Shown here in pieces: positions 13,001-25,000 of a DNA stretch of 64,000 nt; the stretch's first letter is position 1; every line of letters starts with the position of its first letter. The DNA is from Zingiber officinale. Its lineage: Eukaryota > Streptophyta > Magnoliopsida > Zingiberales > Zingiberaceae. Under the pieces are notes generated by a model that saw only the letters and a program-made list of their open reading frames with translations, was not told the origin of the DNA and ran no database searches. The translations under genes and the position numbers were made by a program. The stretch lies in the NCBI RefSeq assembly GCF_018446385.1, contig NC_055987.1, positions 8,207,705 through 8,271,704 on the forward strand. The letters are read 5' to 3'.

Positions 13001-16000
13001 TTTTTGTTCGAATGTTCAGTAGTAATCATCTTATGATGCTATATACAAAGTTTTTCCAGCAAAATGTAGAAATTTATGGAATTTGGATATAGTTTCTAGT
13101 TTCAGGAGGTTGATATCTAAATGAATTTGTATAAAATTGTGTTCTTAGATCTGGTCATATTTCTTCTTTCATAATTCTGTATACTTCCTATTCGCAGCAG
13201 CTGGCATTTTGTACCAGTAAACAAGTCATAAAGTTTGTCTGGTGCTATACAGGGAATTCTAATATCTCTGCAGCGGCCATGGAGGAGGGAAACTATGCAT
13301 AATCTAGTGAAACAAGCCACTGGTATTGACTTCTATGAATATGAGAACAACCTAGATGCTGCAAAAAAAATTGCAAGAGAAATATTAGAGAGCAGAACGG
13401 AAAGCAAGGATGGCCATCTGATTGAAACATGTCCATCTGTTGGACATGTTCTCAATGAGGTAGTGCCTATGTTTTCAGTTTTCACATACACTACAAAATG
13501 TTTAGCATCTCTTTCTTCATCTTTTGATCACTGTAATAGCTGGTTTTGAATGTTTAAGAATGGAGTCTACCAATTGATGTAGTTTTTGGCTCATTTCACC
13601 AGTGTCGATCTTAACCAATAATGCTTGGATTATAAGACTTTTATGTTAGTTTCTGTTCACCTATTAATTATATCATTATTTTTATTCGAAAAATGCCCTG
13701 TTTATCTTTTTAAAGGTAGCTATAATGATTATGTGAACTTTATCGGATTTGTTTTATGCTAAATTTCAGTTTCCTATAGATTAGCATGTCTCCATCACCA
13801 ACAAATTTATTCATTTCTTCATTTGAAATATAATCATGATTACGAGCAACTTTGAAGGATTGTAGTTTCTTTTTGCTTTGGTAATTAACATTTTATTTCT
13901 ATTGATAAGTATGACTTCATCAAATAAAATATTTATAGGGATCAATGTAGAAAAATCGTAAAAGGCTCTGTACTTAAATTAAACTCTTTTGCTGGCCTGG
14001 TTGAAGATTTTTGTACATCAATTACAGTGAGCACTGCTACAGATTTCTTAATCTTGAAAGAACACCTTGGGCACTACTGGGATAGATCCCACCTCTTATT
14101 AACAAAGACTGCACCTCAACTGCCATGGTGGTATATTGTGGTGAGGCTCATTAGTCGCACTCATGTATGATAAAGCATCTAAAACTACTTAGAATAGGTT
14201 CTACAAAGTCGTAGTTTAGTGTTATTTCAAGACTTATCTTACATCGTTTCCTTCTTATGTTTTGGCTATAGAAATATTCAGTAAACCATTTAAATTTAGT
14301 AATGATATAGGTTAACATGATCATTATTTTAGTAACAAATGACTTTTCTGAATTTGTTTTAATTGACATAGCAGATGATAATGCATTAATGGTAATAACA
14401 AATATTGGTTATACTTGGAAGTTGAGAGTGAGAAGCTGTGAGCTTAAATCTACTGATGTTAAATCAGTGTAATAGTGGAGTTGACACAAGTTAGGGCACT
14501 GGCAGGAAAATGTTCATGTTAGAGAGTGCATTCCCAATAACCTTAGATGGTGATAATGGGCTTACGATGGAGCTAAAATGAGATGAACTTTACTTGAGAA
14601 ACTTATCTTTTAAAAAAATGAATGTGTAATATTCTTGAGAAACCTATATTGATCTCTTTTTGTGTTTAAACATGTAAATATTCTGCAGATAACATTTTCA
14701 TATTGATTCAGATTTTTGAGACAATTGTTGAGCCAACTCTTGTACAGCCAACATTTGTACTTGACTATCCAATTGAAATATCACCATTGGCTAAACCACA
14801 TAGAAGGTATAGATTCTAACTTTTCTCAAGGTATAATATTCTTTATGCCATTTTTATATGCTATTTAAATGTGGAATATTTTATCTTCTGGTTGTCTTCC
14901 TCACTAAATATATTTATTTCTGCTATTGGTTTATTGATGTATTTGTCATTCTGATTTTAATGATATTTGTTGTACGAAACATCTTGCTTATGTGTTTCTT
15001 TCCAGTTTGTTTCCCCGTTTTAGTAGTTGAGACAATCACCGTAGATCTTCTAAATTTGACTATTGCCTTAAGATTAGCATAAGTGATCTTTTGACATGGC
15101 TGCAACCAAGGTTTAAAATTTCGGTCCAGATCAGAATGATACGGTTTTAGTTTCGTATCGTGCTATGCCGATACCGTTTTGGTATTTTTTTATTTATATA
15201 TAGTAATTATTATATAAATATGTTTATTGTGTATAATTTTAAAATAAGTTGTATATTGATTTTATATAAATTCTCAATTATTGGACAACTTAATATGGTT
15301 AGAAAAAATTATTAAATATAGTTTTCTTTAAAGAAAGTTAACATATCAATAAGACAATAACTTGAATTAAAATTGATACATTATAATACTAATACCAAAA
15401 GGAGTGATCAGTGACGTGAATTAGATGGAAGTATTGGTTCTTGTAACATTCTGCTTAGGTCAACATCATAGCTCTCCGATACCCAGATTAAATAATTATC
15501 CCATAACATGCAATATTGATATTTGATTTTTTCCACATGCCCATCAAGGTGTCTCGATTTTTCACTAGAAGTTGGATTTGAATTGACACCACTAAAATCG
15601 AAACTGGTATAGGCACAGGATAAGCATACGCCCCCGAACTCTAGTATGATGGATCACCATATGATGCATCAGAGTTATAATAAGAAGGTTGGAATCAATC
15701 TTTAAACTCTCCTGCATATCTTGATAATTATGGGCTTTATTTTGTTTGTCACCCTAATATTGACGTTGATATTGAATAGTTCTATTTCTAACTCCATGAT
15801 CATAATCTTGAGTTGCATGTGTGTAATCTGTCTCACATGTCCATGGCTCCGGTGCTAGAGTAGGGGGAACATAATTTTTACCACAAGATGCATCATTACT
15901 ATCATCACTTCCATGAGTACTTGTACTGCTATTAACATCACTATCCTCATTTCGAACTTCTTGTCGGACTTTAGTGTCAGAAGGTGATGATGTTATGTCA

Positions 16001-22000: not shown

Positions 22001-25000
22001 GTCGATAGTAGTGCAAGTACTCATGAAAGTGATGATAGCGGTGATGCATTTGATGGTAAAAATTATATTCTCCCTACTCTAGTACCAGAGCCATGGACAT
22101 GTGAGACAAATTACACACAAACAACTCAAGATTATGTTCATGGAGCTAGAAGTTGAACTATTCAATAAAAGAAAGTTCATAATTATCAAGATATGCAAGA
22201 GAGTTTAGCTAAGATTGATTCTGGTCGAAGTTCATTATACTCGCAGCCTTCTTATTATAACTCTGATGCATCATATGGTGATCCATCATACTTAGAGCTC
22301 AAGGATGTATGCTTATCCTATGTCTTACCCATTTCTATTTCAGTGGTGTCAGTTTAATTCCAACTTCCAGTGATGAATTGAGACACGTTGATGGACATGT
22401 AGAGAAATCAATATTGCATGTCATGGGATGCTTATTTAATCTGAGCGTTGGAAAATTATAGAGTTGACCTAAGAGAATGTTGTAAGAACCAATGCTTCTA
22501 TTTGATTCATGTCACTCCTTTTGGTATTAGTAAGGTAACATATTATGATATATCACTCTTAATTTAAGTTATCGATAGATTAATTTTCTTTAAAGAAAAT
22601 TATATTTAATTTTTTTTAAAACCATATTAAGTTGTCTAATAATTGAGAATTTATATAAAATTTATTTTTAAATTATACACAATTGACATATTTATATAAT
22701 AATTATTATATATAAATTAAAAAAATACTAAAATCGTATCAGCACGGATCGAGATTTTAAACTTTGGTTGTAGTTAATAGGTCAAGTGATTTTGAGAACG
22801 AAATGTCTTTAGGATTCACTAGTTATAACAAGGATATCATGTTCAGAAATGCATGGAAGAAAGACCTGATTCTTTACTCGATGTTGCTTTAATTGAGTTG
22901 ATAGACTGACGATGCTATTTATAGACAAGAAGTTGATACATTATAACAAGCATATTATGTTCAGAATCAAAGGAAATAAGAACCTGATTGTTCACATGAT
23001 GTTGCTTTAACGTTAAGCCTATAGAGTATGCAAAGTTATCTTGTGTATCATTTAGTAGCTTGACAATGCTATTCTAAGCAGGATTAAAATCTTGAGCCGT
23101 AGTAGTCGGTATGAGTTAAAAATTTTCATTATGCTCGTTGCTTGACACATTAGAAGCTACAAAATCCATGGTATGCGAGTGGAAGTTAATGGTTGCCTTT
23201 GTGAGTTTATTGTGAGATGCTTTGTTTATCAGCATCTTCCACCTTCCATGAGAAGCTCTGGCATCTCTGAATAGTTTGCTGCATCAAAATGCACAATCTA
23301 GAGCTCATTTGAGAAGCTGCAAATTGTTCCTTCGTCACATCGCGCGAAGCTCCCCCTGATTTATCCTCCGCATTAGAAGTCACGTCACAAGAAGCTTCGT
23401 GCTAGCTCCTCCTTTGCACTGAAACCTTCGCTTCCTTGAATTCTAGCTTGTTGGTTTTACTCACATTTCTCCATCGTTGTATCGTGTGTTGTGGCTCACG
23501 TTTAGCCAATTGCCAGTGATGACTCTCAACTCCAAGTAAGCTTCTTTGTCTACTACTCTTTTTTGTCCTCTTCTTCTTTCGCTTCCTGTTCCTCCTTATT
23601 GGGGTGACTGGCACTATATTTGTTGGCATGGACCAAAATGGCAACAAACAATTTCATTTCCATCAGGGACCAAAACCATGACTCAGATCACAATTTTAAA
23701 CCTTGATTCATAGACAAGAAGTTGATACAGTGTGGGATACCTGAACCAACATAATTCATTTCCTAGAGGCATCTTCTCAGCAGAGTAATTTTATCAAATT
23801 TGTTTTTCGCTCCTTGAAACTTCCTCTTTAATTGGACTTTTCTAATTATTGCGAGATTGTAAACTATTTACTTTGCCCTAGGAATGTGTGTAATCAGTGG
23901 GGAATAAACATGGGAAGTATGGAAAAGACTTGCCTTTTTATCATCTAAAACAATTATTCGTCTTGGTCATTGAGTGCTTTCAAGTTACAAACAAGCTCAC
24001 AATTCCAGCAAAAATTGAGGAAGAATTTTGAAGAATCCAAAAAAATGATTCTTTCAGGAGCTCATTTCCTTTGGCTTAGTGCACTGGGAACTTAGTGGCT
24101 TGCAGTTGGGAGAAAACATCTCCCACCGGGAACGCTAACTGTGGACCTACCGCTGCTATACTAGGAGAGATCATACTGCATTATAGACTTGCTTTCCAGG
24201 TTATAATAGAATCCCTGACTCTTTGAAAAAATTGCTAGATTAGTTCACTCTTCCATTGTTGATAGTGTCAAAATATCTACTTTCACTTTAGGATATTGAA
24301 TCCACCATTTGTTTGGTGATAGATTACAGAATATATGTTTTTTATATAGTCTTATGACAAGGTTAATCTTTGATAACTGTTTTAGTACCCTATTGCCGAC
24401 GTATAGTGTAGGTGTCAAATTGGAGAGGAAAGAAAAATAAATATAACTATATACTGAACTTTGAACTTTATATTCCATCTAGAATGCTTAATTTTGATGT
24501 TACATTGTACAAACCGAAAATATGATAAATAAATAAATAAAAAATTTCAGCACATCTCGTATCATGCTAAAGGGGTGTTAAATATTGGCATGATACGATA
24601 CTCATTGACATAATTGACATGACACAAGATACATTACGTATCTTGAGTAGCATCAAGATTAAAACATGTATCTGAACAATATATTTTGACCGTACTACCT
24701 CACATGGTACTAGTTTTCAAATAATGTGGCAAAAAGACGATTCGCTCGCTCCCAGTGCCCCCGCCAACCCGTCCTTAGGCCAACACGGAGGAGGTAAATC
24801 ACGGGTGGCTACTAGCCATTAGTGCAGGTGGCAAGGCATGGGACACTAGTTTTCAAATAATGCTTCATGATATTACATCATAAGATCAGAAAATAATGGT
24901 TATGTGAATTTGTAATATTTTGCACTAAATATGCAATGCATTTTTTATGCTGATGCAGTCACAAAGGGTTGACTGAGCGGTTTGAACTTTATGTTTGTGG

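Follow-up and report, generated by a model that had tools for sequence, protein, structure and literature searches.

An old and decayed pair of hAT transposon copies, lying head to head, forms a palindrome within one intron of a ginger (Zingiber officinale) gene for a lysyl-tRNA synthetase (LysRS) of bacterial type, as found in a 64,000-nucleotide stretch of contig NC_055987.1 (positions 8,207,705 to 8,271,704, forward strand), hereafter the window. We estimate, at roughly three chances in four, that a second hAT copy arose locally beside the first, that the centre of the pair was lost, and that the arms have since decayed as non-coding sequence across which the host gene is spliced, with no special role for any hairpin RNA. 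The palindrome spans 15107-22766 of the window, and the features on which this account is based are as follows.

15107-18960, minus strand: left arm, a hAT copy of 3,854 bp with its 3' terminus outward and its 5' end lost, from self-BLASTN and family comparison
18961-19055, no strand: loop of 95 nt, element sequence retained by the left copy only
19056-22766, plus strand: right arm, a hAT copy of 3,711 bp with its 3' terminus outward, from self-BLASTN and family comparison
15107-15123, minus strand: 3' terminal inverted repeat (TIR) of the left copy, CAAGGTTTAAAATTTCG on the plus strand, matching the family 3' end TTTTAAACCTTG
22750-22766, plus strand: 3' TIR of the right copy, CGAGATTTTAAACTTTG, compared with the family 3' end
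19760-20242, plus strand: longest open reading frame (ORF) listed in the right arm, 160 aa, by its position a transposase remnant
14700-14806, plus strand: LysRS exon segment before the intron, by tblastn with E. coli LysS 371-404, with the donor AG/GTATAG at 14806/14807; 14806 is the exact 3' exon end and 14700 the start of the matched part only
14807-24958, plus strand: palindrome-bearing intron of 10,152 bp, GT-AG, with GT at 14807 and AG at 24957-24958
24959-25051, plus strand: LysRS exon after the intron, by tblastn with E. coli LysS 410-437, with the acceptor CAG/T at 24958/24959

The inverted-repeat structure in the intron is confirmed. Self-BLASTN of the window returned a single inverted match, 15166-22744, with a bit score of 7340, and a repeat search found 39 inverted pairs along the palindrome, the 25 pairs listed being 77-95% complementary. 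A sequence-only reading made beforehand had described two decayed hAT copies head to head, with 3.9-kb arms at 15089-22783 and a loop of under 100 bp; the self-BLASTN match, together with the domains found in a relative, bears out the paired copies, and the loop is indeed short, but the ends had to be moved inward, as comparison with the family sets the outer element ends at 15107 (CAAGG...) and 22766 (...CTTTG). The comparison of the two arms that this reading had suggested, aligned with the loop kept in the left row, gave 88.5% identity without gaps (411 mismatches in 3,571 paired columns) and 521 gap columns in 55 runs. The right arm has lost its 5' end ~95 bp further in than the left arm. 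The loop belongs to the element and is not foreign, for the stretch 18844-19055 is matched as a single piece by other family copies, which continue differently from the window beyond 19055. An Rfam scan gave no match at gathering scores, and a search of a plasmid collection gave none. Just right of the palindrome, at 22823-23010, stand two 70-nt direct copies, 118 bp apart and 79% alike.

Elements of the family are ~4.9 kb long, with the ends 5' CAAGGATTGAAATACCG.. and 3' ..TTTTAAACCTTG and short TIRs that vary between copies. They extend ~0.9 kb past the loop to a 5' TIR that both window arms lack, each arm being without roughly 0.9-1.0 kb at its 5' end and keeping one TIR, the 3' one. The domain scan was run on copy A of the related locus L071, to which the left and right arms align over 3,824 and 3,589 paired columns, respectively; the part of it homologous to the arms contains DUF659 (E 9.1e-52) and Dimer_Tnp_hAT (E 3.6e-9), and DUF659 falls in the region of this less decayed relative that is homologous to the ORF at 19760-20242. 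The 8-bp target duplication is exact in L071 (ATTATTCT) and agrees at 6/8 in L022, and the direct match of 4/8 at the outer ends in the window is what one would expect had each copy lost its other end. Short relatives with internal deletions include L013, L016, L022 and L024. A 33-mer of the family occurs at 157 genome places with at most 3 mismatches, and K80 between compared copies is mostly 0.13-0.21, a few pairs lying at 0.02-0.03; as most compared copies are about equally distant, the family looks like one old burst.

The host gene was identified by tblastn of E. coli LysS against the window, which gave eight exon segments and, at 55892-55966, a further match dismissed as chance (E 7.4).

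8446-8559, 10600-10686, 11055-11156 and 11868-12014: LysS-matching exon segments, by tblastn
14700-14801, 24969-25052, 25896-25949 (E 0.004) and 26329-26454: LysS-matching exon segments, by tblastn

The exons on either side of the palindrome join in frame across 14807-24958, and the joined peptide matches E. coli LysS. Thus the GT-AG sites and the in-frame join support the earlier statements that the palindrome lies in an intron of a bacterial-type LysRS gene and that the exon ends beside it are intact, and the gene is presumably expressed and spliced normally across it. From its bacterial type and from work in Arabidopsis, we take this LysRS to be the organellar and essential enzyme. A second LysS-matching gene type, 52-53% identical over the peptide used, is present on contigs C13 and C14 and is probably the cytosolic enzyme.

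Among the copies compared, the two arms are each other's closest relatives. In trees of copies hand-chosen from the best-scoring matches, they are sisters with support of 100/99 among 6 near-full-length copies, 98/94 among 13 rows (5' part) and 100/100 in a 15-row tree, in which the arms of 4 other head-to-head loci are likewise sisters in 4/4 cases (100/99 or 100/100). In 3,005 columns the arms share 28 exclusive sites, compared with 7-16 for the other 14 pairs, and they share 2 exclusive indels, compared with at most 1 for any other pair. Two independent hAT insertions that happened to land head to head would suit a star-like family in which the arm-to-arm K80 of 0.133 is barely under that of the nearest other copies (right arm 0.134, left arm 0.138; farthest 0.185 and 0.193, respectively), yet we consider such a coincidence very unlikely in view of the sisterhood found in all three trees, the highest count of exclusive sites of any pair, and the loss of both 5' ends at almost the same place. 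Measured over two ORF parts of L071A, the arms differ at rates of 0.166, 0.106 and 0.089 at codon positions 1, 2 and 3; differences are thus lowest at third positions, which gives no hint that either arm has been under coding selection after the split, and coding constraint, which predicts a third-position excess, is ruled out for these parts.

Local or self re-insertion is normal for this hAT family. L071 (C2:94054600-94064200), which belongs to the 4 head-to-head loci of the 15-row tree, arose by exact self-insertion: a copy sits reversed within another, the 8-bp target duplication ATTATTCT stands without a mismatch on both sides, and K80 between the two is 0.03. L073 holds a copy inside the 5' part of another copy, and L072 looks like the same nested arrangement with a central deletion. 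Copies also cluster: among the 100 best-matching of the 157 places, 6 adjacent pairs lie within 15 kb, the window's own included, against 0.048 expected at random. A head-to-head bias of the family is ruled out, as the 6 close pairs comprise 2 head-to-head, 2 tail-to-tail and 2 in the same orientation. A further head-to-head hAT palindrome, its centre in the 5' part, was observed at C6:89814600-89825000, with an allele on C5 near 109.98 Mb; its arms are 80.6% alike over 2411-7657 of the joined stretch, and the pair fits neither nested form plainly, as one arm breaks off inside the element. Loci L028 and L035 (C9 near 72.79 Mb, C10 near 70.17 Mb) show an inverted arrangement of the family 5' region, 72-73% alike over ~600 bp.

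Given that the family makes other local inverted pairs, local re-insertion or inverted duplication followed by loss of the centre suffices to account for the palindrome. We propose that one element of the old family may have landed in the LysRS intron and that, soon after, a second copy would have arisen at the same place in opposite orientation, either by re-insertion of a sister copy nearby or within the first element, as in the maize doubleDs structures, or by fold-back and copying of a broken end, which would make the pair an inverted duplication. Loss of the central 5' ends would then have produced the present pair of 5'-truncated copies, which face each other across a 95-nt loop with both 3' termini outside, and both arms would have decayed as non-coding intron sequence across which the host gene is spliced.

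Several observations weigh against this account or parts of it. The trees hold at most 15 copies, compared with 157 places for the family 33-mer, and head-to-head places on C9/C10, on C12 near 104.99 Mb and on C5 near 62.84 and 109.98 Mb lie outside them. When a 563-bp part of the left arm was searched, the right arm was not among the best 40 scored places, so that sisterhood rests on shared sites and trees rather than on raw similarity; we take this to mean that other copies are less decayed. Sequence searches of the flank left of the left arm turned up no outer element's 5' remnant, the trace expected of nested self-insertion, although very short remnants would escape them. The outer ends have no matching direct 8-bp duplication (GCTGCAAC / GTTGTAGT, 4/8), and the outward flanks instead match in inverted orientation (GTTGCAGC.. 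/ GTTGTAGT..), with an anchored score of 8.5 that is reached by 24/3000 random pairs.

This inverted flank match favours an inverted duplication that included ~20 bp of 3' flank over re-insertion, and we regard fold-back or template switching of a single insertion as an evenly balanced sub-route of the local-copy account. The sister arms and the single-copy 95-nt loop are in line with it, and fold-back priming at breaks is one proposed mechanism for inverted duplications, as described in the available part of PMC10622511. However, the flank similarity is short and its support modest, and the products described in that part of the paper are hairpin-capped and dicentric chromosomes, so that a second switch to the host flank would be needed here. 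On the side of nesting, an outer 5' remnant of the doubleDs kind was not found in the window and is present in L071, L073 and, with its central deletion, L072. With a 330-bp query from the centre, no place but the window's own covered the whole query among the best 40 of 1,105 matches, the longest others covering 71-330 at 74-75%. Movement of the palindrome as one unit is not supported, both on this search and because its outer ends lack a matching direct duplication. An imperfect direct repeat, AAGTGAT, was rejected as the target duplication of the whole palindrome, being at chance level (326 of ~3000 random pairs score as high).

Oxford Nanopore (ONT) reads can yield false palindromes. Since the published ginger assembly was built on such reads, according to the portion of PMC8342452 available to us, a fold-back long read or a misjoin was also considered as the source of the structure. 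A fold-back read would give near-identical arms, whereas here 411 of 3,571 paired columns are mismatched and 55 gap runs separate the arms, and this divergence strongly disfavours such an artefact; moreover, the palindrome flanks match only themselves in the genome, bar a ~0.13-kb repeat near 24.7 kb. We find an artefact hardly credible. The repeat in question is a ~120-bp module at 24710-24843 with many genome copies, mostly ~87-94% alike and sometimes several per place among the best 40 of 3,381 matches.

The genome searched comprises 3.09 Gb in 211 contigs, with the window on C2, and we take it to be the haplotype-resolved ginger assembly, for which the available part of PMC8342452 gives 22 superscaffolds and pseudochromosomes of 88.69-194.39 Mb. 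C1 is the homologue of C2 and resembles the window at 89-99% in sampled places down to 31454, for instance at 58600-60200 (C1:7692980-7694630, 91%) and 33399-36500 (C1:7666909-7670014, 99%). Reading 2 kb of C1 to the left of these places showed the match to end at 31454. Searched against the genome, window 14300-15088 matched only itself, with nothing on C1, and window 2400-4400 matched itself and 78% paralogues on C13/C14, again with nothing on C1; the LysRS peptide found this C2 gene and the C13/C14 type only. Thus, by two window stretches and the LysRS peptide, no second allele of the gene was found in the assembly, and the missing C1 counterpart left of 31454 may be either a haplotype-specific loss or an assembly gap over a housekeeping gene. 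Splicing across the palindrome therefore matters more than first thought. Further along the window, from 59943-60528 on, repeats with many relatives in the genome lie downstream of an ORF that is WRKY-like by its motif.

Strong pairing of the two arms is predicted for RNA. An inner part of 1,347 nt would fold as one hairpin at -788 kcal/mol, which agrees with the earlier claim that a transcript could form a very long hairpin, and ten tiles along the arms, folded separately, gave 3,282 predicted inter-arm pairs. The same reading had suggested that the hairpin feeds DICER and thereby silences related hAT copies, which is possible but unproven. More fully, a hemizygous LysRS gene would act as constitutive driver of a silencer resembling Mu killer, in that unspliced or lariat intron RNA would fold over ~4 kb and be cut by DICER-like enzymes into 21-24-nt small interfering RNAs (siRNAs) that would help to silence the ginger hAT family elsewhere; we consider this very unlikely. 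In its favour, the window does hold an inverted duplication of transposase sequence that is predicted to pair, with 33 perfect arm-to-arm runs of at least 21 nt, and Mu killer, as the accessible text of PMC3440606 describes it, offers a precedent as an inverted duplication of a transposase gene. Among the 411 mismatches, 189 would be G:U pairs on the gene-sense strand as opposed to 139 on the antisense strand, and in the gene sense C>T outnumbers G>A (194/1119 vs 149/1127, p=0.007 pooled) and does so in each arm (left p=0.10, right p=0.035), an excess that might faintly reflect long transcription through the intron.

However, strand asymmetry of similar size occurs in other copies of unknown transcription, such as L076 and both C6 arms, in the latter with G>A above C>T on the plus strand, opposite to the window. 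When the arms were compared with 67 other loci, some of them outside the hAT family, 1,901 of their 14,978 distinct 24-mers (13%) occur exactly in at least one and at most 423 (3%) in any one, and 2,611 of 14,832 distinct 21-mers occur in at least one. In the Mu killer system itself, it was the non-silencing plants that had sense transcripts reading through from the flanking gene, so that these went with failure to silence, at least in the available sections of PMC3440606, where the authors nevertheless keep a hairpin route open for minor longer transcripts. Among the papers listed in literature searches on intronic long-hairpin silencers and doubleDs, none was a direct precedent. A silencing role is not needed to explain the palindrome, and any hairpin RNA from it presumably has none.

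Taken as structure alone, the window clearly illustrates how local events in a hAT family give rise to inverted pairs, and that a plant gene can carry an intronic palindrome of 7.7 kb. With no other LysRS allele found in the assembly, ginger would lend itself to testing, in nature, whether splicing is disturbed, or small-RNA pathways are fed, by a long intronic hairpin that is fairly well paired. Were the silencer reading true, a housekeeping gene would drive a transposon-defence hairpin, and its expression would be inseparable from the silencer.

The closest comparisons are with maize and Arabidopsis. The maize doubleDs elements, made by local or self-insertion, are, like the nested Ac-Ds arrangements, same-family hAT copies with one reversed, a form shown in ginger by L071 with its exact 8-bp duplication. 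Unlike doubleDs, the window shows no outer 5' remnant or internal duplication, and its pair is old and decayed with both 5' ends gone. Compared with nested LTR elements, nested Ds are the rarer, and no chromosome-breaking double Ds were detected in B73, as far as the part of PMC3260210 available to us reports. Mu killer (Muk) likewise lies next to a transcription unit of the host and duplicates part of a transposase gene in inverted orientation, with both TIRs from the same element end and a hairpin RNA proposed for it, to go by the same portion of PMC3440606; it differs in being derived from MuDR rather than a hAT element and in that its silencing was shown genetically, whereas the ginger arms are 11.5% diverged.

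The heterochromatic intronic transposons of Arabidopsis, for which IBM2 and EDM2 are the factors named, share with the ginger case the presence of transposon sequence inside an intron of a gene, which in Arabidopsis is transcribed; the ginger insertion differs in being palindromic. In the available part of PMC4417168, intragenic transposons of Arabidopsis keep heterochromatic marks, their state matters for proper transcription, and most are shorter than intergenic ones. The default expectation for ginger too is therefore a quiet, methylated intron, and the structure in the window, an old hAT inverted pair in an intron, is real but ordinary and of a known sort.

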